Assembly (NCBI GenBank): GCA_023511455.1 | Contig: JAIMBJ010000007.1 | Span: 1-64,000, forward strand | Origin: Bacillota bacterium | Lineage (GTDB): Bacteria > Armatimonadota > HRBIN16 | Direction of reading: 5' to 3' | Length of the DNA stretch: 64,000 bases | Part shown: one piece after another, positions 8,146 through 24,490 of the stretch | How the letters are laid out: each line of letters starts with the position of its first letter | How positions within the stretch are numbered: the first letter of the stretch is position 1 | Program-made: the position numbers and the translations under genes | The notes under the pieces: model-generated | The model's database searches: none | What the model was told of the DNA's origin: nothing | What the model saw: only the letters and a program-made list of their open reading frames with translations

Positions 8146-9279
8146 ATGATGCCCAGACCATGGAACACGGTTATCGCTTTCGTGCTGGGATTCGCCGCCT
8201 GCGCATTGATACTGCGGTGGATGGGGTACCAGTCTCCATCGTCCTCCCGACAGCTGGTTCTGGCGACGCTGGATGCCCCCGTACGGCAGGTGGGTAGTGT
8301 AACCGGCGCGAACGCTATCGCGGAAGCCTGCGCACGTATCGAGCCTGCTGTGGTGAACATCGATACGTTTATGCGTCCCCGACGTTCCCTGCGCCTGGAG
8401 GATTTCTTCGGTCCGCAAGAGGCAATGCGAGGCTCTGGCTCGGGGGTCATTATCAGCCCGGATGGCTACATCATCACCAACCACCATGTAGTGCGAGGCG
8501 CGGACGAGATTGTGGTGTCGTTGGCTGATGGCAGACGGTACCTGGGCAAGCCGGTGGGTGCTGACGAACAATCGGACATCGCCGTGATTAAGGTCGACGC
8601 GCGAGGTCTACCCACTGCCGAACTGGGTGACTCCGATAAGCTGCGTGTGGGGGAATGGGCGATTGCGGTGGGTAACCCGCTGGGTTTGGGCAGCACGGTA
8701 ACGGTGGGAGTCATCAGCGCGCTCAATCGGCGCAAGCTGTTGGTCGAGGGAGACCGCTATCTGGAGGTGGCCATCCAGACGGACGCCGCCATCAACCAGG
8801 GCAACTCTGGCGGCGCTCTGGCGAATATCCACGGGCAATTGATAGGGATTAACACCGCCATTGCAGCTCCGCCCGGCGGCGGTTCCATTGGCATCGGTTT
8901 TGCCATCCCCATCAACCACGTCAAGAAAGTGGTGCGCGACATTCTTGTGCAGGGGGGAACGGTGCGGCGGGCACGACCCTGGATTGGTGTCTATTTCGAC
9001 GCAGTCCGCCCCTCCCTGATGCGGCGTGCGCGCCTCCCCGACCTGAACGGCGTAGCGGTCGAAGAGGTAGTGCCCAATAGCCCGGCGGATAGAGCGGGTC
9101 TCCGTGCGGGCGACGTGATACGCGCCTTTGGCGAACGCCCTGTACGCGCGACGCAGGAGCTGCTGGAGGAAATCATGAAACGACAGCCAGGCGACCGTGT
9201 GAACATCAAGGTGTGGAGAAATGGCAAGGAAATCACCCTCTCTCTAACCGTTGGGACTTTTCCCGATGGCAATCGGTAA
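8146..9279 (+). CDS. HtrA/DegP-family serine protease with PDZ domain
   Basis: A 377-residue envelope protease. An N-terminal hydrophobic segment (residues 8-25) anchors or exports it. The trypsin-like domain has His114 (TNHHVV), Asp144 (SDIAVIK) and Ser221 (GNSGG). A single PDZ domain follows at about residues 285-370 (GLRAGDVIRAFG). One PDZ plus a membrane anchor is the DegS/HhoA-like architecture. A GGTGAGG sequence that overlaps the ribH stop serves as ribosome binding site. Likely role: quality control of exported proteins. It is linked to ribH only by position. Confidence 0.9.
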   Translation: MMPRPWNTVIAFVLGFAACALILRWMGYQSPSSSRQLVLATLDAPVRQVGSVTGANAIAEACARIEPAVVNIDTFMRPRRSLRLEDFFGPQEAMRGSGSGVIISPDGYIITNHHVVRGADEIVVSLADGRRYLGKPVGADEQSDIAVIKVDARGLPTAELGDSDKLRVGEWAIAVGNPLGLGSTVTVGVISALNRRKLLVEGDRYLEVAIQTDAAINQGNSGGALANIHGQLIGINTAIAAPPGGGSIGIGFAIPINHVKKVVRDILVQGGTVRRARPWIGVYFDAVRPSLMRRARLPDLNGVAVEEVVPNSPADRAGLRAGDVIRAFGERPVRATQELLEEIMKRQPGDRVNIKVWRNGKEITLSLTVGTFPDGNR

Positions 9280-9294
9280 CATGAGGTGAGTGCG

Positions 9295-9741
9295 GTGACC
9301 GAGGAGATAGAGCGAACCGAAGCCCTGTTGAAGCTGGCGAGGCGATACCATCTGCAGGAACTGGAATGGCAGGAGGAAGGTTTGCGTGTTTTCATCCGCC
9401 GGGAAGCAACGCCGGTGGAAACGGTGGGTGTCCCCCTGACATCCGGGGTTGTACAGGACACAACTGCTGGTACTCCTGCCAGTGCCACGCTGGTTGAACT
9501 GTGCGCCCCGATGACGGGAGTATTTTACCGCGCCACCTCGCCCGATGCTCCTCCCTATGTCGAGGTGGGCGACTTCGTCGAAGAGGGACAAACCGTGTGC
9601 CTGATTGAAGCCATGAAGGTGTTTAACGAAGTGCCTGCCGAGCGTTCGGGCAGGGTGGTGGAGATATGTGCCTCCAACGGGCAGCTGGTGGAACAGGGAG
9701 CGGTGCTCTTTCGTCTGGAGCCAGAGGAGGTAAGCGCGTGA
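9295..9741 (+). CDS. accB: Biotin carboxyl carrier protein of acetyl-CoA carboxylase
   Basis: A 148-residue carrier that holds biotin for acetyl-CoA carboxylase in fatty acid synthesis. The C-terminal biotinyl domain has the EAMK motif with the acceptor Lys108, preceded by CAPMTGVFYRATSP and followed by the glycine turn near VEQGAVLF. The N-terminal 40 residues are a helix as in AccB. The GTG at 9295 was chosen because GAGGTGAG lies 4-7 bases upstream; an earlier GTG at 9286 would overlap that site. Its stop overlaps the start of hom by 4 bases. accC, the usual neighbour, is absent; the ligase BirA is encoded at 42828. Confidence 0.9.
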   Translation: MTEEIERTEALLKLARRYHLQELEWQEEGLRVFIRREATPVETVGVPLTSGVVQDTTAGTPASATLVELCAPMTGVFYRATSPDAPPYVEVGDFVEEGQTVCLIEAMKVFNEVPAERSGRVVEICASNGQLVEQGAVLFRLEPEEVSA

Positions 9742-11030
9742 GCAAGGAGGTCATCCATCTGGGCATCCTGGGGCTGGGCGTGGTCGGCTCGGGAACGGTC
9801 GAAGTGCTTCGGCGCAACCGCGAAAGCATCGAGCGCAAGATAGGAGCGCGTCTGGAAATCCGCCGGATTGCCGTGCGGGACGTGAACAAACCCCGCCGTG
9901 TGCCTGTAGACCGCTCATTGCTCACCAACAATGCCTATGAGGTCATCGATGACCCGCAGGTAGACATTGTGGTGGAGCTGATTGGCGGTGTGCATCCCGC
10001 CAAGGAGTATGTGCTGCGCGCGTTAGAAAACGGCAAGCCAGTGGTCAGCGCGAACAAGGAACTGCTTGCCAAAGAGGGCGCGGACATCATGATGGCGGCG
10101 GGTAGATGCCATCTGGACTTTGCCTTCGAGGGAAGCGTAGGAGGTGGCATCCCGATTATTCAACCCATGAAAAACGCGCTGGCAGGTAATCGTATCGAGC
10201 GGGTGATGGGAATCGTGAACGGCACGACCAACTACATCCTCACGAAGATGGCAGAGGATGGCACCGACTTCGACCAGGCGCTGAAAGAGGCACAGGCGCA
10301 GGGCTACGCGGAAGCCGACCCCAGCGCGGACGTGAACGGACATGATGCCCAGTATAAGATAGCTATCCTGGCATCGATCGCCTTTACTGCCCGTGTGAAG
10401 GTGGACGACGTGTATTGCGAGGGTATTGCCAAAATCACCCGCACCGACATGGAGTGGGCGAACCGGCTGGGATATGCAATCAAACTGGTGGCGATAGCGC
10501 AGGAGGTCTCGCCCAAAGCGGTACAGGTGCGCGTACATCCCGCGCTTTTACCTCTCTCACACCCGTTGGCAAGTGTGCGCGACGTTTACAACGCCATTCT
10601 GGTGCACGGAGATGCCGTGGGCGATGTGATGTTCTATGGGCGCGGGGCGGGCAGTTTGCCTACGGGCAGCGCAGTAGTCGGAGACATCATCGATGTGTCG
10701 CGCAACTTGCTGTTCGGTAGTAGCGGGCGTGTGGGCTGTACGTGCTTCGACCAGCGTTACGTCATTCCCATCGAGCAGGTGGAAACCAGCTATTACGTCC
10801 GGATGCGCGTGCAGGACCGTCCAAACGTACTGGCGCAGGTCGCCGGGGTGTTTGGCATTCACCACATCAGCATCTCCTCGGTGGTGCAAAGACAGATTAA
10901 CCCGCAAGAGGCGGAGATTGTGTGGATTACGCACCGCACGCAGGAGGGCGCGATACGCCATGCGACCGCCGAAATCCGACGTCTACCCGTCGTGATGGAC
11001 GTGTGTAGCACCATTCGCGTGGAAGAATGA
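9738..11030 (+). CDS. hom: Homoserine dehydrogenase
   Basis: A 430-residue enzyme that reduces aspartate semialdehyde to homoserine on the way to threonine and methionine. The Rossmann motif LGILGLGVVGSGTVEVL opens the protein. VMGIVNGTTNYILTKM and the EADPSADVNGHDAQYKI segment, with its catalytic acidic and lysine residues, lie at 150-230. A C-terminal ACT domain (residues about 350-430, YYVRMRVQDRPNVLAQVAGVF) gives threonine feedback. The GTG at 9738 has GGAGGT 8 bases ahead and overlaps the accB stop; a longer frame from 9666 merely reads through accB. It overlaps the next gene by 4 bases. Confidence 0.95.
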   Translation: MSKEVIHLGILGLGVVGSGTVEVLRRNRESIERKIGARLEIRRIAVRDVNKPRRVPVDRSLLTNNAYEVIDDPQVDIVVELIGGVHPAKEYVLRALENGKPVVSANKELLAKEGADIMMAAGRCHLDFAFEGSVGGGIPIIQPMKNALAGNRIERVMGIVNGTTNYILTKMAEDGTDFDQALKEAQAQGYAEADPSADVNGHDAQYKIAILASIAFTARVKVDDVYCEGIAKITRTDMEWANRLGYAIKLVAIAQEVSPKAVQVRVHPALLPLSHPLASVRDVYNAILVHGDAVGDVMFYGRGAGSLPTGSAVVGDIIDVSRNLLFGSSGRVGCTCFDQRYVIPIEQVETSYYVRMRVQDRPNVLAQVAGVFGIHHISISSVVQRQINPQEAEIVWITHRTQEGAIRHATAEIRRLPVVMDVCSTIRVEE

Positions 11031-12100
11031 AACTCATAGACCGCATGTTGCTATCCGAGCTGCTGGTGCCCTTCTTGGCGGGCACGCTGGCTGTGGTGCT
11101 GATGCTGATTGGCAACATGCTGTTTTTTTATGCCGAAGTGCTGTTTGCCAAAGGCGTACCGGTGGTTGCCGTCGCGCAGATGATTGTCTATCATACCCCC
11201 TTCTTGCTGGTGCTGACTCTGCCGGTCGCAACGGCGCTGTCGGTGTCGCTGGCGGTGAATCGGCTGGCGAGGGACTCCGAGATTGTTGTACTGCGCAACG
11301 CGGGCGCGAGCCTCTGGCGTATTTTCCTGCCCCTGCTGGTGGCGGGATTGGTGATTTCTGTGGTAAACTTCTGGCTTGAGGAATCGGTGGTGCCGCAGGC
11401 AGAACGACAGTTCCGCCGTGTGCGAGACCGCATCTTCCTGATGCAGACGGCGCCGATGTTCCGTTCCAACGTGGTTTTCAAAGTGAGCGATTATGCCTTC
11501 TACATTGGCCTGGTGGAGAGCGTCAAGGACAACCGCGCCGAGTTGCGAGATGTTCAGGTGTGGGAGATGCCCGTATCCGGCTATGCGCGGACGATTTTGG
11601 CTCCTCGCGCGGTGTACGACGACGGGACATGGCGTTTCTACAACGCGCATGTGCATATCTACGGCAGGGATGGGTTTGCCATTGATGCCCGCGCTGCCGG
11701 GGAGATTACCATCAACTTACGGGTGGCGCTGGAGGAACTGCTCAGCCCGCCGACACCGGAGGAAACCAACGCAGCGGAACTGCGTCGTCAGGCACAGGAG
11801 CTGGAGAAGGCAGGGATGCCAGCCACGCGGCTGTGGGTAGGATACTACTTCAAGTATTCCATCCCTTTTGCGTGCGCGGTGTTTGCTCTGTGCAGCGCGC
11901 CTCTGGCGTTGACCTTCGCCCGTGCGGGCAGCTTCATGGGAGTGTTGCTGGCGATTATTCTCGTATTCCTGTTCTGGAATACCCTGCTGCTGGCGCGATT
12001 GCTGGGCAATCAGGGGTTTTTGCCTCCGGCGGTTGCCGCATGGGCGCCCAACGTGCTGTTCGCCGCTGGCGGACTGTTTATTCTGTGGCGGTTGGAGTAA
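11027..12100 (+). CDS. LptF/LptG-family permease
   Basis: A 357-residue inner-membrane protein of the YjgP/YjgQ family, which forms the transmembrane part of the lipopolysaccharide export ATPase LptB2FG. Three N-terminal helices (residues 12-115) carry the family pattern LLSELLVPFLAGTLAVV and LPVATALSVSLAVNRLARDSE. A periplasmic beta-jellyroll domain occupies about residues 130-260, and three helices close the protein. Overlap with hom is 4 bases (ATGA). It is the only Lpt gene here; LptB and the second permease must be elsewhere. Presence supports a diderm envelope. Confidence 0.85.
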   Translation: MKLIDRMLLSELLVPFLAGTLAVVLMLIGNMLFFYAEVLFAKGVPVVAVAQMIVYHTPFLLVLTLPVATALSVSLAVNRLARDSEIVVLRNAGASLWRIFLPLLVAGLVISVVNFWLEESVVPQAERQFRRVRDRIFLMQTAPMFRSNVVFKVSDYAFYIGLVESVKDNRAELRDVQVWEMPVSGYARTILAPRAVYDDGTWRFYNAHVHIYGRDGFAIDARAAGEITINLRVALEELLSPPTPEETNAAELRRQAQELEKAGMPATRLWVGYYFKYSIPFACAVFALCSAPLALTFARAGSFMGVLLAIILVFLFWNTLLLARLLGNQGFLPPAVAAWAPNVLFAAGGLFILWRLE

Positions 12101-12103
12101 GGG

Positions 12104-14800
12104 ATGAGCCGTGTGAAATCCAAAAAGCAAGATTCGCCTGACGCGGTACAGGCTGGAGCCTGTACGACCCCATCCAGTGATAGCATCATTGCTCTCCACC
12201 TGCGTGAGGAATGGGTTCACGCGCTGGCTGAAATGCAGGACGCCCGGGAGATAGGGCAGTGGATAACGGAACAACGCGAGCAGCTGATGCATCACATTCA
12301 GCCCCACCAAGATGGACTGCATACCTGCCGTTCTTTTACAGCTCTTGCCGACGCGGTGGTGCGTCGTTTGTTTCAGCTTGCTGTCCAGCGCGCACACGTC
12401 GCACAGCCCCCGGAGATTGCCGTCGCCGCCACCGGCGGGTACGGGCGCATGGAACTGTCGCCGCACTCGGATATCGACATCACCTTCATCCCGGAGCGCG
12501 ACGGCGACGCCACTACCGATCGCATCATCCGCGAAATGTTTCGTCTGCTGATGCACGTGATGATGGAGTACGGGCATCTGAAGGTGGGCTACGCCTATCG
12601 GCTGATTGAGGACTGTGCCACGCTGGACCACACTACCCAGACGACCCTCGTGGATGCCCGACTGGTAACAGGGAGCCGACACATCTTCGCCCGCTTTCTG
12701 GAGGAGTTCTGGGCAAACTTCAATCCCACCGATTTTCTGTTCCGCAAAATCGCCGAGCGGCGCCAGGTACGCGCCCGTTATGGCACCACTCCTTATCTGG
12801 TGGAGCCGAACGTGAAAGAGGGGGCTGGCGGGCTACGTGATATTCACCTCGTGCGGTGGCTGGCAGCCGGATGGGCAGGGCTGCCCACGGCAGGGGAGTG
12901 GGAACAGCTGGTAGCCCGTGAGTGGCTGACGCCGGAGGACGCGGACCGCCTGATGGAGGCGCACGAGTTTCTGCTGCGCGTGCGCAACCACCTGCATGTT
13001 CTGGCAGGGGAACAGCGAGACGTTCTCACCCCCTCCAAACAAGAGCAAATCGCCTCTCGTCTCGGATACGAGCCCGGCGAGCACGCGCCCCCCGTGGAAC
13101 AGTTCATGCACGATTACTACCTTCACGCCGCAGACGCACACCGAATCTGCGAGGAGGTTATCCGTCGGGTCGAGCAGGGGAGGCACGTGCTGGGCATTGG
13201 ATTAGACTGCGAGCGCAAAGAGGTGATACCGGCACAAAACCTGTTGCAGCGCGAGGACCCTGTATGGATGGTGTGGGCGGTGCGATTAGCACTGGAGTAC
13301 GACCTGAATCTGAGCACACCTCTGCAACGGTTGATGAGGCAAACCGCTCAGCGGAAGCCGACCACGCATGACCCCAAACACCTTGCGGAGACGTTTCTTG
13401 CCATCCTGCGTGCCCCCAGCGGGGTGGCACGCGCCCTGCGCCAACTGGCAGACACGGGTGTGCTGGGATGGATACTGCCGGAGTTCGAGGCGACCCGCAC
13501 GCTAATCCCGTATGACCCCTCGCATAACTTCACCGTGGGCGAGCATACCCTGCGCGTGATAGAGAACGTCGATGCGCTGAACAGTATCACCGACCCCAAC
13601 TACGCGGATTACCGGCGCATTTTTCAGGAGACGCCGCACCGTGAGATACTGTACCTTGCTGCGCTGTTGCACGATGCGGGCAAGGCGAACCCACACATGG
13701 AGCACGCCGAAGCCGGAGCGCAGATGGCGCAGGAGGTGGGCAAAAGGCTGTACCTGAGCGAAGACGCGATTGCCGACCTGGTGTTTCTGGTGAGGCATCA
13801 CCTCTTAATGGCGGAAACCTCGCGGCTCCGCGACCTCAACCTGGAAGAAACCATACGCGATTTTGTCCACATCGTGGATACGGTAGAGCGACTGAACATG
13901 CTGTATATCCTGACGTATGCCGACACCCATGCGGTCGGCAGCGGGCAGTGGACGGAGGTAAAGGCCGCCTTCCTGCGAGAACTGCATCGCAAAGCGGAGC
14001 GGTTCCTGATGGCATCGGAAGCGGTGGATCACGCACCGCCTGACATCGGCAGATTCCGCCGCCGCCTGGCAAAGGAGCTGAGCCTGGAAAACCTGCCCGA
14101 AGAGCTGGTCACTCGCCACCTGAACCAGATGCCCGCGACCTACCTGCTGAACACGCCGCAGGAGCAGATTGGCTTGCACATCCGGATGGTGCAGGAGGCG
14201 ATACAGGGCACACCCCAGCTGGCATTCCAGACAGCTCCCGATGCATCGGTTACCGAGCTGACGGTCTGTGCTATCGACGACCCTGAGCCGGGCTTGCTGG
14301 CAAAGATTGCGGGCGTTCTTTACGCGGGACAGGTTGCCGTGCACGCGGCGAACGTGTTCACCCGCTCGGGGGAAATCAAGATTGCCCTGGATACGTTGTG
14401 GGTGGACTATCGCGGTCGCCCGATACCCCCTTCGAAGCGCGCGGAGATCGAGGAGCATATGGTCGCAGTGCTTACGGGCGAGTTGTCGGTAGCGGAACTG
14501 CTCCAACGTCGCCGTCGCCACGAACAGACGCCACCTGAGCTGGTCAGTCTGGTAGTGCATCACGACCTGTCCGAGCAGTTCACGGTGATAGAGGTGCGCA
14601 CCACCGAGCATATTGGGATGCTTTACTGGGTGTGCCGCGCGCTGTCGCAGCTGGGCTGGAACATCCACAGCGCGAAGCTCAGCACGTGGGCGGGCAAGGC
14701 GGTGGGCGTGTTCTACATCACCGACTCGGAGGGACGCAAAATCCACGCCGACGCCCAGCGACTGAAGGACACCCTCGCGGAAGGGGCAGAGGCGTTATAG
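12104..14800 (+). CDS. glnD: [Protein-PII] uridylyltransferase / uridylyl-removing enzyme
   Basis: An 898-residue nitrogen sensor that adds UMP to PII proteins when glutamine is low and removes it when glutamine is high. Nucleotidyltransferase motif GGYGRMELSPHSDIDI lies around residue 110. The HD hydrolase domain has LAALLHDAGKANPH near residue 520. Two ACT domains at the C-terminus (about 705-780 and 815-890) bind glutamine. The order and the length match GlnD. It starts 3 bases after the permease stop. No PII gene (glnB/glnK) is adjacent. Confidence 0.95.
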   Translation: MSRVKSKKQDSPDAVQAGACTTPSSDSIIALHLREEWVHALAEMQDAREIGQWITEQREQLMHHIQPHQDGLHTCRSFTALADAVVRRLFQLAVQRAHVAQPPEIAVAATGGYGRMELSPHSDIDITFIPERDGDATTDRIIREMFRLLMHVMMEYGHLKVGYAYRLIEDCATLDHTTQTTLVDARLVTGSRHIFARFLEEFWANFNPTDFLFRKIAERRQVRARYGTTPYLVEPNVKEGAGGLRDIHLVRWLAAGWAGLPTAGEWEQLVAREWLTPEDADRLMEAHEFLLRVRNHLHVLAGEQRDVLTPSKQEQIASRLGYEPGEHAPPVEQFMHDYYLHAADAHRICEEVIRRVEQGRHVLGIGLDCERKEVIPAQNLLQREDPVWMVWAVRLALEYDLNLSTPLQRLMRQTAQRKPTTHDPKHLAETFLAILRAPSGVARALRQLADTGVLGWILPEFEATRTLIPYDPSHNFTVGEHTLRVIENVDALNSITDPNYADYRRIFQETPHREILYLAALLHDAGKANPHMEHAEAGAQMAQEVGKRLYLSEDAIADLVFLVRHHLLMAETSRLRDLNLEETIRDFVHIVDTVERLNMLYILTYADTHAVGSGQWTEVKAAFLRELHRKAERFLMASEAVDHAPPDIGRFRRRLAKELSLENLPEELVTRHLNQMPATYLLNTPQEQIGLHIRMVQEAIQGTPQLAFQTAPDASVTELTVCAIDDPEPGLLAKIAGVLYAGQVAVHAANVFTRSGEIKIALDTLWVDYRGRPIPPSKRAEIEEHMVAVLTGELSVAELLQRRRRHEQTPPELVSLVVHHDLSEQFTVIEVRTTEHIGMLYWVCRALSQLGWNIHSAKLSTWAGKAVGVFYITDSEGRKIHADAQRLKDTLAEGAEAL

Positions 14801-15078: not shown

Positions 15079-15474
15079 ATGAGCCGCTACCTCATGGACA
15101 CCAACCATGTCAGTGGTCTGTGGAGAGGGGAGGAACGCCTCGCCGAAAGGATTAGGTCGTTCGATGGCGTAGTTTATCTGTGCACTCCAGTGGTTGGAGA
15201 GCTATAGCACATGGTGTATTCCAGTCATCGACAGGCAGAAAACATCGTCGAATTGGAGATTCTGCTGAGCCTTTTCCCTGTGTTGGCTTATGATGACCTT
15301 GCCGCACGTGAATATGGACGTATCCGCTCTTTGACGAAGCAACAGGGCTTCACACTACCGCCTGTTCACGCGATGATCGCTGCAACTGCACTGGTGCATG
15401 GTCTAACAGTGTTGACGTCGGATAGCGATTTCCTGCGGATTCCCGATTTGCGAGTGGAAAACTGGCTGATGTGA
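15079..15474 (+). pseudogene. VapC-like PIN-domain ribonuclease interrupted by an in-frame TAG
   Basis: One continuous reading frame of 131 codons encodes a type II toxin-antitoxin PIN nuclease, but codon 43 (15205-15207) is TAG. Before the stop are RYLMDTNHVSGLW (first catalytic Asp) and TPVVGEL (Glu). After it come HMVYSSHRQAENI, the AAREYGRIR segment, and LTVLTSDSDFLRI with the last acidic residues. In many PIN relatives the motif is GEL followed by an aromatic residue, so the lost residue was probably Trp (TGG to TAG) or Tyr. There is no frameshift. An in-frame ATG at 15211 could restart translation but would lack the N-terminal catalytic half. Most likely an inactivated toxin. Confidence 0.75.
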
Positions 15475-15629: not shown

Positions 15630-17063
15630 ATGAGTAAAGACGAGTCTCCGAACACGAGCGCGGACAAAGACGCACGTCCTATCGAGGTGGACTTCCCGTT
15701 GCAGAAAGTCTCCCAGGAGTCGGTGCGGGAGAAGAATATCCGACACGGGCACATCAGCACGCTGCATATCTGGTGGTCGCGCAAGCCGCTGGCAGCATCG
15801 CGGGCGTCCATCTTAGCCGCACTGCTGCCCGACAACCCCATCAAACGCCACGAGTACCTGAAACTCATCGAGCGACTCGCCCCGTGGGAAGACGCAAAGG
15901 CAAACAGCCGTGCGCTCCTACTACAGCAGGCGCGCGCCCTGATACGCGAGGCGTTCGGTGGGCGCGCCCCGCGCGTGTTAGACCCCTTCGCGGGCGGCGG
16001 CAGCATCCCGCTGGAGGCGATGCGACTGGGCTGCGAAACCTACGCGCTGGACTACAACCCCATCGCCGTGCTGCTCAATCGCTGCGTGCTGGAGTACCCG
16101 GCGCGCTTTGGCGCGCCCGACTCGGTGTCCAGCGTGCCCTTGCCACCATCCGACGCGCCGTCGCAGGCGACCTTGCTCGTGGATGTCCCTGCCCCATCGC
16201 CCCTGTTGCTGGCGGTGCAGGCGTGGGGCGACTGGGTGCTACACGAGGCGCGGAAGCGACTGGAACGCTTCTACCCGCCCGACCCTGACGGCTCGATTCC
16301 TGTCGGCTACTATTGGATGCGCACCGTGCCCTGCCAGAACCCCAGCTGTGGCGCGGAAATCCCCCTCACCGCCAACTTGTGGCTGGCAAAGAAAGACCAG
16401 AAAGAGGTGGCGCTGAAGATTGTGCCTGAGCGTGCGCAGAGGCGGGTGGCGTTCCAGATTGTGGGTCAGGAGGGCGAACCGATAGACTTCGACCCTGAGC
16501 GGGGCACGGTGGCGCGGGCGCATGTGGAGTGTCCCCTGTGCGGGGGCGTGATAGACGACAAGACGACCCGTCGTCTGTTCCAGGAGGGCAAGGCGGGTCA
16601 GCGGATGGTTGCCGTGGTGCTGCACCACCCTAATCATCGGGGCAAGCGGTATCGGCTGGCGACCGAAGCGGATGGGGACGCCTACCGCGCTGCTCAAGCG
16701 GAGCTGCAGCGTGTGCGCGACCGTCTGCGCGAAGAGTGGGGCATGGAGCCGGTGCCCGATGAGCCGCTGCCGCCGCTGGAAGCGCTCGGTTTTCGAGTCC
16801 AGCGCTACGGTCTGACCCGTTGGGGCGACCTGTTCAATGCGCGGCAGCAGTTGGCGTTGGTGACCTTTGTTGACCTGGTGCGTCGGGCGCACGCCGAGAT
16901 GCTGGCGCAGGGCGCCGACCCCGAATTCGCTAAAGCCGTGGCGACCTACTTGGCGTTAACAGTCTCTCGAATGTCCGATTTTGAGACATCGCTAGCAGCC
17001 TGGCATCCACAGTGGGAGTTTTCTAAGAACACATTCTCACGACAGGCAATCCCGATGACTTAG
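15630..17063 (+). pseudogene. DUF1156 adenine-specific DNA methylase, N-terminal part ending at a premature TAG
   Basis: 477 codons of a COG1743-type DNA methylase. The start at 15630 follows AGGAG by 7 bases and gives the family N-terminus [20 protein letters not shown] and [15 protein letters not shown] (DUF1156). The SAM-binding segment [18 protein letters not shown] lies around residue 118. Zinc-ribbon cysteines (CQNPSCG and CPLCGG) lie at 230-315. The frame stops at TAG 17061-17063 after RQAIPMT; in the family this is followed by WDY/WDF, so TGG became TAG. The next codons in the same frame read DYSELNP and continue the protein. The stop lies in a patch of clearly lower G+C (16981-17160). 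As read, the enzyme is truncated before its DPPY catalytic motif. Confidence 0.85.
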
Positions 17064-18479
17064 GATTACTCAGAGCTTAATCCGTTGTCTCCCATCCTAA
17101 CAGGCACTTGGCGGAGTATGTTTGGGCAAGTTATGGAAACCTTATCGAACCTTGTTAGCACTCCAATCTCAGATACGACTCTTGGGAGTATTCAACACGG
17201 TTCCGCGACCGACCTGCCGTGGGAAGACAACTTCTTCGACGCCGTCATCACCGACCCGCCCTACTACGATAATGTGCCCTACGCAGACCTCTCGGACTTT
17301 TTCTATGTGTGGCTCAAGCGCAGCGTGGGGCACCTGCACCCCGACCTGTTCGTCACCCCGCTCACGCCCAAATCCCAAGAGATGGTCGCCGACGCCAGCA
17401 AGGTGGGCGGCGATATGCAAAAGGCACGCGAGCGATTCGAGGCGATGCTTCTGCAGGCGTTTCGTGAAATCCGCCGCGTGCTGAAGCCGAACGGCATCGC
17501 CGTGATTGTGTTCGCGCACAAGACCACCGCAGCGTGGGAGACGGTGCTGGGCGCACTCACGGAGGCAGGACTGCGCATCACGATGGCATGGCCCATCCAC
17601 ACCGAGATGCAGGCGCGGTTGCGCGCGCAGGAGTCGGCTGCACTGGCGAGCAGCATCTATATGGTCTGTCGCAAGCGTCAAGGCGCGACAACGGGCTACT
17701 GGAGCGAGGTGCGCCGTGAGACGCGCGAGCGCGTGGAGCGCCGCCTGCAGCAGTTCTGGGACGCAGGGGTGCGTGGGGCGGATATGTTCATCAGCGCGAT
17801 TGGCGCGGCGATGGAGGTCTTCACCCGCTATGCTCGCGTGGAGAAAGCGTCGGGCGACCCTGTGCCGTTGGGCGAGTTTTTGCAGGAGGTGCGCCAGGTG
17901 GTCGCCGAGTTTGCGCTGCGGCGCGTGCTACACGAGCAAGCCGTTGCCAGCGAGCTGGACGCGCTCACCCGCTTCTACCTGCTCTATCGCTGGTCTTACG
18001 GGCGCGCGGAGGCGCCGTTTGATGAGGCGCGCAAGTTGGCGACCAGCGTCGGGCTGGAGCTGACGCAGGTGTGGGGCGCGGGCGAGGTCATCGAGCAGGA
18101 CAAGGAGCGCGTGCGCGTGCGGGCGCACTACGAGCGGGCGTGGGGCGTGCGTGTGGGCAGGAATGCGGGGCTTCGACGTCCAAAGACAACGATTGAGCAG
18201 TTCACGATGGAGGCGATGCAGCAGGGCGAGGGCGGGAAGGACGATGCGGTCGCCGCATGGGATGTGCTGCGGGAGCGCGGGCGCAGCGCGCTGATTGAGG
18301 CGATTCAGCTGGCAGCGGCGCTGTGGGAGGCGAACCAGCTGAGCCTGTTGCGCGAATGGCTCGACGAAGGCTACGGTAACCGCCCCGCCTTCTGGCTGAC
18401 GGCGCAAGCCATCTCGGAGCTCCTGCCCGACGGCGAGCGCGAACGCCGCGTCCTGCAAGGACTACTTGCACATCGGTAA
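17064..18479 (+). pseudogene. DUF1156 adenine-specific DNA methylase, C-terminal part after the premature TAG
   Basis: The same frame continues without a shift for 471 codons. It holds the catalytic motif ITDPPYYDNVPYADLSDFFY about 60 codons after the stop, then the family C-terminal region ending a few bases before the DUF499 ATPase. Re-initiation could occur at ATG 17118 (weak GGCGGAG ahead) or 17133, giving a protein with the catalytic motif but without the [10 protein letters not shown]-binding motif. Whether N- and C-terminal pieces could act as two chains is unknown. Most economical reading: a single methylase gene inactivated by one G-to-A change. Confidence 0.8.
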
Positions 18480-18499
18480 AATAACAGATGGAGGCACCC

Positions 18500-21139
18500 A
18501 TGCGGGCATGGTACGAGGTGATTAAGCCGCGCGCGGACATTCTGAGTGGCGAGTTGGACGAGGCGATTTTCGCGGCGAACTTGGCGGATGTGCTGCACGG
18601 GCGCGCGCCGCTGGAGTATGGCGACCCCGCGCGGTTCTTTCAGCAGACCTACCCGACGCAGGGGCTGGTGAACCTGCTGGCGGCGGTAGCGAAACGGCTG
18701 GCGCAGGGTACAGGCGACTCGGTGATTCAGCTCCAGACGCCGTTCGGCGGGGGCAAGACGCACGCGCTGATCAGCCTTTACCACCTGTTTCGGCATGGGA
18801 GGCAGTTCCCCGACGCCGTGCTAGTGCGCCAGACGGTGGAGCGGGCGGGGCTGGACGCGCTGCCAGAGGTGCGCATCGCCTGCTTCGTCGGCGAGGACGC
18901 CGACCCCATTCGCGGCAAGACGCCGTGGGGCGCGCTCGCCGAGCAGCTCGGCGTCTACCCGCTGGTGGAGGAACACGACCGCCGCCGCCGCGCGCCCGGA
19001 CGCGACCTCGTGCTGCAAATGCTCGGCGAACAACCGACGCTGATCCTGCTCGATGAGCTGGCGGTCTACCTGGTGGCAGCAAAAGACTTTCAGGATCAGG
19101 TGCTGGCGTTCTGTCAGCAGTTGACGGAGGCGGTGAGCGTCTCGCCGCGCGCCGCGCTGGTGGCGACGCTGCCCAGCAGCGCGCCCTACGGCGAGGAGGG
19201 TGAACGCGCCCTGCGTCAGCTGGAGCAAATCTTCGGGCGCGTGCAGGCACTCTACACCCCCGTTGAAGGCGACGAGTTCTTCCGCGTGCTGCGCCAACGC
19301 CTGATGCAGGAAGTGATTGACCCCACCGAGCTGAACCGCGTCGTGGACGCCTTTTTCGAACTCTACAAGCGCGCCGATGTGCCCGAAGAGGCGCGCCAAG
19401 ACGCCTACCGCGAGCGGATGCGCCTGGCGTACCCGTTCCACCCACTGGTCATCGACACGCTCAATCGGCGGTGGAGCACCTTTTCGAGCTTTCAGCGCAC
19501 GCGCGGCGTGCTGAAGTTTCTCGCCTCCGCGCTGCGCGACCTGTACGAGCGTCAAGTGAACACGCCGCTGATTCTGCCCGCGCACCTGAATCTGGAATAT
19601 GCCTCCATTCGGCAGGAGCTGCTGCGGCATATCGGCAACCCGTATGCAGGTGTCATCAGCCAGGACATTGCGGGCGCGGGCGCAAACGCCGTGCAGATTG
19701 ACCAGCAGCTGGGCGCGGAGTACGCGCCGATGCGCATTGCGTCGGGGCTGGCGACCGCCATCTTTTTCGGCTCATTCAGCGCGGGCGAGCAGGTGGGCGT
19801 CACGGAGCCTGAGCTGCGCTTGGCAGTCCTGCGCCCGAACCTGCCCCCCGCCGTGATTGGCGACGCGCTGCACAAACTCACCCAGAAGCTCTGGTACCTC
19901 CACTCCGAGAGCGGGCTGTACGCCTTTCGGCTCACGCCCAACCTGAACAAGGTGCTGCTGGAGAAAGAGGAGCAGGTGCGCGCCCACGACTTAGCACAGC
20001 GCGTGCGCGACGAGGTTCAGGCGCGCATAGGACGCGAGAGCCTGACGCCGCTGGCGTTCCCGAATAATTCCGGCGACATCCCCGACACAAAGGAGCTGAA
20101 GCTCATCGTACTGGCGCCTGAACATCTCTTCGGCAGGTCCGAGACGGAGGCGTTCGTGGGGGAGTTGCTCACGCGCGCGGGGGACAAGCCGCGCGTCTAC
20201 CGCGCCACTTGCTTTGTGCTTGCGCCCGACGCCAACGAACTGGAGCAACTCCAGCGTCGCGTCAAACAGCTGCTCGCGCTGGAGGCGATTCAACGCGACC
20301 AGAAGCTCCTGCAATCGCTCAGCGACGAAGACAAGCACACCGTCAGCGGTCGGATTAGCGAGATACGGAACGCCCTGCCGCAGTTGGCGCTGAGCGCGTA
20401 TCGGCATCTTGCTCTCTGGCGCGAGAACGCCGTGCAGTGGTTCAATCTCGGCATCCCGACGGCGGGCAGGCAGGAGACGCTCACCTCGCGCGTGGTGAAC
20501 TTTCTGCGCAAGGAAGACATGCTGGTCAGCCGCGTCTCGCCGCAGCTGGTGCGCGATAAGGCGGTCGGCGCGGATACCGATAAGCCCCTTGCAGAGGTGG
20601 TGGACGCTTTCTACAAGTACCCCTCGCTGCCGATAGTGGAGTCGCCGCGCGTGGTGCTGGACGCGATTCAGCGCGGGGTGCAGGAGGGGCTGTTCGCCGT
20701 GCAAATCGGCGAGCGCGTCTACTTCAAGGAGCCTGTGTCGCTGAGCGAGAGTGAGTATGGAGCGACGGTGCGCACCGACTACACGCCGCCTGCTGCGCAG
20801 CCGTCCGACCAGACCGCGCCCGCGACAGACGAGGCGACGCCTACGCCTTCGCGCGTTATCGAGAACGGCGTTGAGCTGCTTCCCCCGCCTGCGACGCCCG
20901 CCTCCGCGCCGACGCCCGCCCCCAGCTACCGACGCTACGCCCTGCGCGCCCGATTCTCCACCGACAAGTTCTCGGAGGTCTACTCCAGCGTCATCAAGCC
21001 GATTGTCGAAACGGGACGCAGCTTCACCTTCACGCTGGAGTTCGAGGTGGACGGCGAGCTGCCCAAGCAAGTGGTCGATATGCGCGTGTCGGAGTCGGCG
21101 CGGCAGCTCGGTCAAGTGGAACGCGAGGAGAAGGCATAA
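18500..21139 (+). CDS. DUF499-family ATPase of the defence module
   Basis: An 879-residue P-loop ATPase. Walker A is TPFGGGKTHAL (residues about 79-89) and Walker B is LILLDELAVYL (about 180-190). The C-terminal quarter contains a low-complexity Pro/Ala/Thr linker followed by a small alpha/beta domain. This is the COG1483 family that accompanies DUF1156 methylases and SNF2 helicases in defence islands. The ATG at 18500 is preceded by GGAGG at a 5-base gap; an ATG at 18488 overlaps that site. It begins 20 bases after the methylase frame ends and 3 bases separate it from the helicase, so all three form one operon. Codons are markedly rich in GCG/CGC. The molecular role in defence is not established here. 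Confidence 0.8.
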   Translation: MRAWYEVIKPRADILSGELDEAIFAANLADVLHGRAPLEYGDPARFFQQTYPTQGLVNLLAAVAKRLAQGTGDSVIQLQTPFGGGKTHALISLYHLFRHGRQFPDAVLVRQTVERAGLDALPEVRIACFVGEDADPIRGKTPWGALAEQLGVYPLVEEHDRRRRAPGRDLVLQMLGEQPTLILLDELAVYLVAAKDFQDQVLAFCQQLTEAVSVSPRAALVATLPSSAPYGEEGERALRQLEQIFGRVQALYTPVEGDEFFRVLRQRLMQEVIDPTELNRVVDAFFELYKRADVPEEARQDAYRERMRLAYPFHPLVIDTLNRRWSTFSSFQRTRGVLKFLASALRDLYERQVNTPLILPAHLNLEYASIRQELLRHIGNPYAGVISQDIAGAGANAVQIDQQLGAEYAPMRIASGLATAIFFGSFSAGEQVGVTEPELRLAVLRPNLPPAVIGDALHKLTQKLWYLHSESGLYAFRLTPNLNKVLLEKEEQVRAHDLAQRVRDEVQARIGRESLTPLAFPNNSGDIPDTKELKLIVLAPEHLFGRSETEAFVGELLTRAGDKPRVYRATCFVLAPDANELEQLQRRVKQLLALEAIQRDQKLLQSLSDEDKHTVSGRISEIRNALPQLALSAYRHLALWRENAVQWFNLGIPTAGRQETLTSRVVNFLRKEDMLVSRVSPQLVRDKAVGADTDKPLAEVVDAFYKYPSLPIVESPRVVLDAIQRGVQEGLFAVQIGERVYFKEPVSLSESEYGATVRTDYTPPAAQPSDQTAPATDEATPTPSRVIENGVELLPPPATPASAPTPAPSYRRYALRARFSTDKFSEVYSSVIKPIVETGRSFTFTLEFEVDGELPKQVVDMRVSESARQLGQVEREEKA

Positions 21140-21142
21140 CCG

Positions 21143-24100
21143 ATGGACGCGCCGCTACGCAAGGGGCAATTGCTGGAGTCCAGCCGCTACCCTGAACCCG
21201 TCACGGTCATCGAGGTGGAGCCTTACGGGGGGGATGGGATATGGCTATTGCGTGCAGTGGGCGTCAACTCGCGTCAATACTACGAAGAAATCCTCACAAC
21301 AGATGAGCTGCGTGCCTTGTGCCCCGCTGCGCCGCTGGCGAGCGACTCTCGTGGCGATGCGGAGCTGTTCTTTCTGGGCATCGAGGCGCACCGCCTGCGC
21401 GCGGCGTACCTGTTCGACCCGCTGCTCGCGGTCAATGTCTCGCAAATAGACCCGTTGCCTCACCAGATCGAGGCGGTGTACCACTACATTTTGCGCCAGC
21501 CCGATGTGCGCTTCCTGCTGGCGGACGACCCTGGCGCGGGCAAGACCATCATGGCGGGGCTGCTGCTCAAGGAGCTGAAGTATCGCGGAGTCGTGCAGCG
21601 CACGCTGCTGGTTGTGCCCGGACACCTCAAGTACCAGTGGCAGCGCGAGATGAAGGAGAAGTTCGGCGAGCCGTTCGCCATCATCGATCGGGGCGTGCTG
21701 GACACCCACTGGGGACGCAATGTGTGGGAGGAGCAAGCGCAGGTGATTACCTCACTCGATTTCGCCAAGCGGGACGATGTGCTGGAGACGCTGCAGGAGG
21801 TGCATTGGGACTTGGTGATTGTGGACGAGGCGCACAAGATGGCGGCGTACCAGTACGGCTCCAAGACGAACAAGACGGCGCGCTATCGGCTGGGCGAGCG
21901 GCTCTCGCTGCAGACACACGGACTACTGTTCCTGACGGCGACGCCCCATCGCGGCGACCCCGAAAACTTTCGGCTGTTTCTGGACCTGTTGCGCCCGGGC
22001 TTTTTCGGCACCGTGGAGATGCTCAACCAGTCGATCCAGCAGCAGGACAACCCGCTGTTTTTGCGCCGTCTGAAGGAAGACCTCAAGGACTTTCACGGAC
22101 GCCCGCTGTTCCCCCCGCGCCGTGTCTACACGCGCACCTTTCGGCTGAGCGACGCCGAGAAACGGCTCTACAATCGCCTCACCGAGTATGTGGAGCAGGA
22201 ATACGGGCGCGCGATGCAGGGCGAGAAGCGCAATGTCGCCTTCGCGCTGCTTTTGCTGCAGCGACGCTTCGCCTCCAGCATCTACGCCGCGCGCAAATCG
22301 CTGGAGCGACGCCGCGACCGCCTGCAAAAGTTTCTGGAGCTGGGCGCGCGATTCACTGAGCAGGGGCAAGGGGTGCTGTTCCTCGATGAAGACGAACTGG
22401 AGGAGTTGGAAGAGCAAGAGCGCGTGCAGCTGGAAGACGAACTGCTGGAAAAGCTCACCAACGCTGCCACGCAGGCAGAGCTGAGGCGTGAAATCGAAAC
22501 CCTCAACGATCTGGTGCAGCTTGCGCGTCAAGCAGAAAAGCAAGAGATTGAAACGAAACTGAACGAACTCCGCGAGGTGCTGGACGAACTCAACCTGCGC
22601 GGCACGCGCGAGAAACTGCTCGTGTTCACCGAATCGCGCGACACGCTCGACTATCTGGTGCGGCAGCTGCGCAAGTGGGGCTATGCGGTCACCGAGCTGC
22701 ACGGCGGGATGAACTTGGACGCACGCATCCGCGCCGAACACGAGTTCCGCCACGAGACTCAAGTCATGGTCTCCACCGAGGCGGGCGGCGAGGGGATTAA
22801 CCTGCAGTTCTGTGCGCTGATGGTCAACTACGACATCCCGTGGAACCCGAACCGCTTGGAACAGCGCATGGGGCGCATCCATCGCTACGGGCAAAGCCGC
22901 GAGGTGCATATCTACAACCTTGTCGCCGAGGACACCCGCGAGGGCGAGGTGCTGGCGACGCTGTTTGAGAAGCTGCAGAACATCCAACAGCAGATGGGCA
23001 CCGACCGCGTGTTCGATGTCATCGGTGACCTGCTGGAAAAGAGCCTGCGCGAGTTGATTGTGGAGGCGATTACGAACCCCACGCGCTGGCACGAAATTGT
23101 GAGCCAGATTGCCACGACCCCCGACGAGGCACTCATAGCGCGCGTGCGCGAAGCCACGCAAGAGGCGTTAGCCACGCGCCACATCGACATGCAGGCGATT
23201 CTGGGCGAGGAGCGTCGTGCCCGCGAGCAGCGTCTCGTGCCCGAGTATGTGGAGCAGTTCTTCGAGCGCGCATGTCGGCGTCTGGATATCCGCTTGCGCC
23301 GCCCTCCACCTCACCTGTGGAGCCTCGATACACCCTACGAGCTGCGTCGCCAGTCCCAAGCGTTCAAGCGCGCCTACGGCGAGGTGCAGCCCAGCTATCA
23401 GCGCTTGACCTTCCACAAATCGGTCGCCCGCGAGCAAGGCGCGGAGTTCATCGCGCCAGGACACCCCCTGCTGGAGGCGGTCGTCGAGCAACTGTTGGAG
23501 CAGAGCAAGACCGCTTTGGCGCAGGGCGCGACCTTCGTCGACCCCGACGGCAAGCGCGACCGCTGGCTCTACTTCTACGCTTTGGAACTGCGCGATGGGA
23601 ACAACCAAGTCGCCGCACAGCGGCTAACGGCGATTTTCTGTCCGCACGGCGGCGCGCCTCAAAGCGTCAACCCGTCCATTCTGTGGGATTTGCAGCCCGC
23701 CGTGTCGCCGCCGTATCAGGCGCAACCACCCGATGAAGCCGCCATTCACACCTACCTGCTGCAGCACCTCCTGGAGCCGTTGGAGCAAGAGCTGCGGGCG
23801 CATCGCGAGCAACTGGCGGAGATCAAGCGCAGGTATGGCGTCGCTTCACTCAACCGCCGTATCGGGGAGTTGACCCAGCGTCTGCTGGAGTACGAACAAC
23901 GCTTGGTGCCTGCGCCTGAAGTGGCGAATGTGCGCCGCCGCAAAGAGGAAGCAGAGGCGCGCAAACAAGCGTTAGAGGCACAGATCGAGCGCGAGCGCAC
24001 GATTCGGCGCGTGCCGCCGCGCTTGCTCGGCGTGGCGCGAGTGGTTCCCGCGCCGTCGGACAGCCTCCCGATGCACGCCGACGCCGCCATCGAAGCCATC

Positions 24101-24490
24101 GGGATGCAGGTCGCGATGGAGTACGAGCGTCAGCAGGGGCGCGTTCCCGTCGATGTCTCCGCCGAGAATCGCGGCTACGATATCCGCTCCGAAGCGCCCG
24201 ACGGCAGCGTGCGCTACATCGAGGTCAAGGCGCGCGCCCACATCGGCGACCTCGTGCTAACGCCCAACGAGTGGACGATGGCGCAACGGCTGGGCGACGA
24301 GTACTGGCTGTACATCGTCACGGCCGCGGCGAACCAGCCACAACTGCAGTGCATCCAGAACCCTGCAGCAGCACTCAAACCGCTGCCAATTGAGGGAGTC
24401 GTGCGCTATCAAGTGCCGATGGAACACTGGCAGCGAGTCGCACGTCCAGCGGAGCCGTCAGCTCAACTTTCGACCGAAGGCGCATTATAG
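21143..24490 (+). CDS. SNF2-type helicase with C-terminal DUF3883 domain
   Basis: A 1115-residue SF2 helicase. N-terminal lobe: ADDPGAGKTIMAGLLLKEL (Walker A near residue 135), VIVDEAHKMAAY (DEAH near 229) and TATPHRGDP (about 268). C-terminal lobe: LVFTESRDTLDYLV, EAGGEGINLQF and RLEQRMGRIHRYGQ (about 490-590). Long charged helices follow, then a DUF3883 domain at about 1000-1085 with GYDIRSE and YIEVKAR, which resemble the D and ExK of PD-(D/E)XK nucleases. With the ATPase and methylase it forms the helicase-methylase-ATPase type of anti-phage cluster. It is intact, in contrast to the methylase. Confidence 0.85.
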   Translation: MDAPLRKGQLLESSRYPEPVTVIEVEPYGGDGIWLLRAVGVNSRQYYEEILTTDELRALCPAAPLASDSRGDAELFFLGIEAHRLRAAYLFDPLLAVNVSQIDPLPHQIEAVYHYILRQPDVRFLLADDPGAGKTIMAGLLLKELKYRGVVQRTLLVVPGHLKYQWQREMKEKFGEPFAIIDRGVLDTHWGRNVWEEQAQVITSLDFAKRDDVLETLQEVHWDLVIVDEAHKMAAYQYGSKTNKTARYRLGERLSLQTHGLLFLTATPHRGDPENFRLFLDLLRPGFFGTVEMLNQSIQQQDNPLFLRRLKEDLKDFHGRPLFPPRRVYTRTFRLSDAEKRLYNRLTEYVEQEYGRAMQGEKRNVAFALLLLQRRFASSIYAARKSLERRRDRLQKFLELGARFTEQGQGVLFLDEDELEELEEQERVQLEDELLEKLTNAATQAELRREIETLNDLVQLARQAEKQEIETKLNELREVLDELNLRGTREKLLVFTESRDTLDYLVRQLRKWGYAVTELHGGMNLDARIRAEHEFRHETQVMVSTEAGGEGINLQFCALMVNYDIPWNPNRLEQRMGRIHRYGQSREVHIYNLVAEDTREGEVLATLFEKLQNIQQQMGTDRVFDVIGDLLEKSLRELIVEAITNPTRWHEIVSQIATTPDEALIARVREATQEALATRHIDMQAILGEERRAREQRLVPEYVEQFFERACRRLDIRLRRPPPHLWSLDTPYELRRQSQAFKRAYGEVQPSYQRLTFHKSVAREQGAEFIAPGHPLLEAVVEQLLEQSKTALAQGATFVDPDGKRDRWLYFYALELRDGNNQVAAQRLTAIFCPHGGAPQSVNPSILWDLQPAVSPPYQAQPPDEAAIHTYLLQHLLEPLEQELRAHREQLAEIKRRYGVASLNRRIGELTQRLLEYEQRLVPAPEVANVRRRKEEAEARKQALEAQIERERTIRRVPPRLLGVARVVPAPSDSLPMHADAAIEAIGMQVAMEYERQQGRVPVDVSAENRGYDIRSEAPDGSVRYIEVKARAHIGDLVLTPNEWTMAQRLGDEYWLYIVTAAANQPQLQCIQNPAAALKPLPIEGVVRYQVPMEHWQRVARPAEPSAQLSTEGAL

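Follow-up and report, generated by a model that had tools for sequence, protein, structure and literature searches.

An Hma-family locus with an amber-interrupted methylase, intact effector genes and an exchangeable cassette in HmaB

The closest described relatives of the locus studied here are the Hma systems of the PADLOC collection (Payne et al. 2021, PMC8565338) and the Type-1 DUF499-centred BREX-Related systems (Rakesh and Krishnan 2026, PMC12839542). In the passages of the latter, comparative paper that deal with them, these systems are treated as BREX relatives, the Hma family is described as related to Type-3 BREX, and the methylase is proposed to protect self DNA; methylase loss is not discussed in these passages, and neither swapping nor recombination of the target-recognition domain (TRD) came up in a text search of the paper. 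The methylase is thus assumed there to be a shield, while the question that matters for the Hma/BREX-Related systems is whether it is a shield only or also the trigger of the attack. In BREX itself, site-specific binding is a property of BrxX alone, and deletion of brxX or the substitution Y511A abolishes both defence and methylation with no toxicity (PMC11842806). Disruptions of pglX are also frequent in BREX (PMC9122589).

The window, i.e. the whole stretch of 64,000 nucleotides analysed here, represents contig C7 of a genome in 73 contigs that is 3.85 Mb in size and 99% complete. At 15630-24490 it harbours a head-to-tail trio of genes for a DUF1156 methylase, a DUF499 ATPase and an SNF2-family helicase that ends in a NOV_C/DUF3883 domain. 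An earlier note on this DNA had recognised a helicase-methylase-ATPase system in the trio, and rightly so: the products match the PADLOC profiles of HmaB (PDLC00661, 1.4e-133), HmaC (PDLC00662, 1.5e-143) and HmaA (PDLC00659, 7.1e-215, residues 17-1065), and E-values of 1e-133 or better put the family assignment far beyond chance. HmaC additionally matches Pfam PF04465 (DUF499) above the cut-off, and HmaA carries NOV_C (PF13020) at residues 983-1071. The operon, in the order hmaB-hmaC-hmaA, is therefore a member by descent of the Hma family, alias Type-1 BREX-Related, with a broken HmaB component; apart from the broken methylase it is an ordinary representative of a known family. Its features and those of its immediate neighbour are the following.

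15079-15474, plus strand: VapC-like PIN gene next to hmaB, interrupted by a TAG at 15205-15207
15630-17063, plus strand: N-terminal part of hmaB (residues 1-477), with DUF1156, SAM motif I, Zn-ribbon cysteines and most of the TRD insert
16968-17204, plus strand: hypervariable, specificity-like cassette of hmaB (residues 447-525), recognised by low GC3 and divergence
17061-17063, plus strand: in-frame TAG replacing the conserved Trp478, from frame reading and homologue alignment
17064-18479, plus strand: part of hmaB 3' of the amber codon, frame open, with motif IV (TDPPYYD, 17250-17270) and C-terminal helical domains
18488-21139, plus strand: hmaC, DUF499 AAA+ ATPase, intact, with Walker A GGGKTH at 18746-18763
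21143-24490, plus strand: hmaA, SNF2-family helicase with C-terminal NOV_C/DUF3883 nuclease-like domain, intact, with GAGKT at 21533-21547 and DEAH at 21824-21835
24173-24184 and 24218-24229, plus strand: GYDI and IEVK, the NOV_C/DUF3883 residues of hmaA, from a motif check

Both effector genes are uninterrupted, and every motif checked in them is kept (Walker A, DEAH, helicase motif VI and the D/ExK residues of NOV_C). This bears out the central observation of the earlier note, a broken methylase beside an intact ATPase and helicase, since hmaB holds one TAG while the frames of hmaC and hmaA are open, and of the inactivating changes that it had considered for the latter two, none was seen in the motifs checked. 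The D and ExK residues that it had pointed out in DUF3883 are likewise present here, and are conserved in 60 of 60 homologues having the domain, so that a nuclease is predicted. Each of the three genes has one well-placed Shine-Dalgarno site: the hmaB start (ATG 15630) is preceded by AGGAG, and hmaC probably starts at ATG 18500, behind GGAGG. Promoter-like or terminator-like signals did not exceed shuffled expectation.

The frame of hmaB (15630-18479) has a single interruption, the TAG at 17061-17063 in place of the expected TGG of Trp478, a position at which 89 of the 91 readable homologues have Trp (45/45 in an earlier set). The amber codon falls between SAM motif I (DPFAGGG, residues 118-124, 15981-16001) and catalytic motif IV (DPPY, residues 542-545), and neither part of HmaB alone should therefore methylate. 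In a confident structure model built from 83 sequences (pLDDT 91; an earlier one from 8 sequences was poor, pLDDT 56) about 400 residues separate the two motifs, and the Foldseek matches of the HmaB model are generic methyltransferase folds only. The source genome holds a single copy of hmaB, and a search of its contigs for a backup HmaB returned only distant matches. In the same-genus genome G185 (L053, L101, L102, L103) there is an apparent second hmaB copy besides that of the operon, with its N-terminal end beside metK and its C-terminal end beside NYN/ABC/MetX genes.

Comparison with G185 yields dN/dS values of 0.23 before and 0.24 after the cassette in which the amber codon sits, against 0.20 for HmaC and 0.17 for HmaA. 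Downstream of the amber codon hmaB thus displays neither decay nor relaxed constraint, and the values indicate a lesion that is young relative to the split from G185, with further decay absent. The same lack of relaxed constraint would also be expected if HmaB were still functional here, either as two polypeptides or through readthrough of the amber codon, and two distant lineages do possess a split hmaB, namely L014 (Acetothermia, 9977-13452) and L072 (in genome G062 of the home phylum, 8843-12222). In both, the halves, ORFs of 502 and 409/410 aa that overlap in L072, flank a HepT/MntA toxin-antitoxin pair, an arrangement that we regard as split genes and not as damage, and a two-part HmaB may work. 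However, the split point of these relatives lies at about residues 512-518, just downstream of the cassette, whereas Trp478 lies earlier, within it; moreover, all in-frame starts 3' of the amber codon lack a usable Shine-Dalgarno site, unlike hmaB, hmaC and hmaA. Amber suppression or recoding was rejected because the tRNAs that could be read from the genome's 43 tRNA hits include none with a CUA anticodon, and because ordinary genes end in TAG, which is used by 6 of 11 genes checked and is the most frequent stop of the window. Readthrough is accordingly unlikely, and we give a functional HmaB, in either form, little credence. Of the split or read-through methylase that the earlier note had offered as one way to survive the lesion, the two-part protein is possible in principle, judging from L014 and L072, but nothing supports it for this copy.

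Further single in-frame TAG codons occur in the same genome. In the VapC-like gene upstream of hmaB, a neighbour that probably does not belong to the Hma system, the TAG (15205-15207) replaces a Trp codon, TGG in G185. A solitary second DUF1156/PglXI-like methylase (contig C39; L105 3891-6213, minus strand) has its TAG just before DPPY, at a position where relatives have R, D or G. All three such lesions seen in the source genome are TAG; the idea that TAG means Trp here nevertheless fails on the third of them. The amber codon of hmaB, which alters one base of a gene otherwise under constraint, could in principle be an assembly error, a minority base or a population polymorphism, in which case the living organism would mostly carry an intact hmaB. 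Against this, the two other single-TAG genes fit real lesions at least equally well, and a similar methylase-dead locus exists in the finished genome of an isolate, Thermus oshimai JL-2, so that we regard such an origin as very improbable.

The stretch around the amber codon has a character of its own. Among close relatives the cassette (residues ~447-525) retains only 23-46% identity, compared with about 58-81% in the flanking segments, and its GC3 at this locus is 0.48 versus 0.81 for the rest of hmaB. The cassette has the lower GC3 in 82 of the 92 homologues compared (Wilcoxon p 6e-15, mean difference -0.15), and the drop has sharp edges at about residues 440-520. A one-off foreign patch or an assembly error at the amber codon was therefore rejected as the source of the low-GC3, divergent stretch, which is a recurrent cassette of the whole family. 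Low cassette GC3 was also seen both in GC-rich hosts and in all six GC-poor ones, and since it is low even in the latter, a random donor pool explains it only incompletely.

Across the 92 sequences, cassette identity barely tracks backbone identity: HmaB backbones that are 94% identical can carry cassettes of 35-39% identity, and backbones of 36% identity can carry cassettes of 59%. Two pairs of loci illustrate this most directly. In L155 and L158, HmaC is 100% and HmaA 99% identical, and HmaB is near-identical except for segments ~379-396, 446-540 and 661-671, the main one being the cassette, of which 264 bp cannot be aligned as DNA. Similarly, the plasmids of T. thermophilus SNM3-3 and SNM1-7 share 99% identity in HmaA, 99% in HmaC and 98% in both the N-terminal and the C-terminal part of HmaB, but 52% in the cassette. 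The alignments thus point to an exchange of the HmaB cassette while HmaA and HmaC remain 98-100% identical, a finding that is new here, and the analogy with target-recognition domains makes it probable that the DNA target is set by the cassette. We consider an exchangeable recognition cassette combined with constant effectors a more interesting result than the broken locus itself.

To see which of the three genes are lost, they were scored in three-gene loci from the home phylum, a second phylum and scattered genomes, within a comparison that took in about 110 relatives. Where the contig holds the full trio, 55 loci scored as fully intact. Lesions confined to one gene affect HmaB in four cases (this locus, G176, G183:C1 and G518), HmaA in two (L007, L020) and HmaC in one (L008), a small tally of seven that stems mostly from metagenome assemblies. 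Eight further loci were flagged for HmaA alone; in one the stop lies close to where the protein normally ends, and in seven HmaA does not extend beyond profile position 610-700 or so, which looks like a different helicase architecture and not like damage. The HmaB interruption of L015 was likewise set aside as an intein (a LAGLIDADG-domain intein at 3-2402, just after the DPPY...FFY catalytic region). Two finished isolates add to the picture. On plasmid pTHEOS01 of T. oshimai JL-2, hmaB is interrupted where the cassette region begins by an IS4 element that has a 10-bp target duplication, and both HmaA (1161 aa) and HmaC (1099 aa) are intact; this applies to the plasmid, and the chromosome may carry a second hmaB. 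On a plasmid of Microbacterium paraoxydans 70447, hmaB is frameshifted and both effector genes are open. Toxin genes of the Fic, HicAB and RelE types recur between or beside the hma genes on Thermus plasmids (L254-L264).

If HmaB were an indispensable antidote to HmaA and HmaC, no lesions in HmaB alone would be expected, yet such lesions equal or outnumber those in HmaA or HmaC, which disfavours that view. The comparison also suggests a reason why loss of the methylase can be survived, namely that HmaB is at the same time the sensor that aims the attack. Cassette exchange leads in the same direction: effectors with a target of their own would leave the host unprotected after a swap, and as swaps have occurred with unchanged effectors, the target of the latter is most likely supplied by HmaB. 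The best explanation, and one that we hold to be reasonably probable, is thus that HmaB both marks host DNA and recognises the target for the whole system, as its only sequence-recognition sensor, aimed by the exchangeable cassette, and that HmaC and HmaA, having no sequence specificity of their own, would depend on HmaB for any action. By taking away the catalytic half of HmaB, the amber codon would then remove modification and restriction jointly (r- m-), and we infer that the locus is switched off but not toxic.

The earlier note had reasoned that, in a restriction-type system, loss of a methylase that protects self DNA would be toxic. This assumption fits Type II restriction-modification, with its independent methylase and nuclease, and not systems of the Type I or BREX kind; it is countered by the BREX precedent (PMC11842806), by cassette exchange with unchanged effectors and by the recurrence of methylase-only lesions. 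Among the ways of survival proposed there, a conditional effector is the best, provided that the condition is HmaB itself, while it does not follow that the methylase is no protector. Taken as a whole, the earlier interpretation is partly supported.

A different kind of conditional effector would be HmaA, with or without HmaC, acting on its own and responding to replicating phage or to DNA ends and not to unmethylated sites; the methylase would then be dispensable for defence and for self-tolerance, and the locus would still defend. Antiphage activity of HmaA has indeed been reported in Halomonas (Liu 2024, as cited in PMC12839542), and if HmaA there acts alone against phage it would not depend on HmaB, which counts against HmaB as the sole sensor; in addition, hmaA and hmaC are open here, keep their motifs and have Shine-Dalgarno sites of their own. 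HmaB is, however, normally retained, being intact in most complete loci, and a tight single operon with hmaB together with continuing diversification of the HmaB cassette would be odd for a dispensable gene. We therefore consider a stand-alone effector unlikely, if the least so of the alternatives.

Returning to HmaB as marker and sensor, a more general proposition is that Hma/BREX-Related systems are aimed by a portable methylase cassette of about 80 residues with a foreign-looking codon composition, which would be exchanged across strains and phyla and would redirect an unchanged helicase-nuclease and ATPase. Such systems could be re-aimed by a swap or shut off by a break, in both cases without self-harm, because all recognition would reside in HmaB. 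To this proposition we give slightly better than even chances. Natural methylase-dead loci (the present one and, better, that of the T. oshimai JL-2 plasmid) and the cassette swaps of T. thermophilus plasmids make the choice between shield and trigger testable in culturable laboratory thermophiles. A literature search found no usable published account of a T. thermophilus methylome. Should the cassette set specificity, it would also offer an easy way to predict, from sequence, which motifs are methylated by thousands of such systems.

Compared with the known systems, the locus agrees with PADLOC Hma in having HmaA, HmaB and HmaC in one operon, but most relatives are ordered hmaA-hmaB-hmaC, whereas here the order is hmaB-hmaC-hmaA, with the amber codon in hmaB in addition. 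With the Type-1 BREX-Related systems, as described in the passages of PMC12839542 on them, it shares the DUF1156 methylase with TRD insert, the DUF499 ATPase and the Snf2 helicase with a PD-(D/E)XK domain, predicted here. In agreement with that description, the TRD lies between motif I (118-124) and motif IV (542-545), and the C-terminal putative PD-(D/E)XK nuclease of the helicase keeps its NOV_C residues. The DISARM helicase profile DrmD (NF038317) scores 364.7 bits, below its curated cut-off of 610. The three hma genes gave no PADLOC hit to PglZ or BrxC (DUF6079), and no PglZ was found by Pfam in the flanking genes tested. BREX (PglX/BrxX) nevertheless likely shares the logic proposed here, with a methylase that doubles as sensor, whose loss is non-toxic and whose disruption is frequent (PMC11842806, PMC9122589), but the effector here is a helicase-nuclease fusion, unlike in BREX. 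Finally, as in Type I restriction-modification with its HsdS, specificity is apparently changed by the exchange of a short domain while the catalytic subunits stay constant; there, however, the S subunit is separate, whereas here the cassette lies within the methylase, beside catalytic motif IV.
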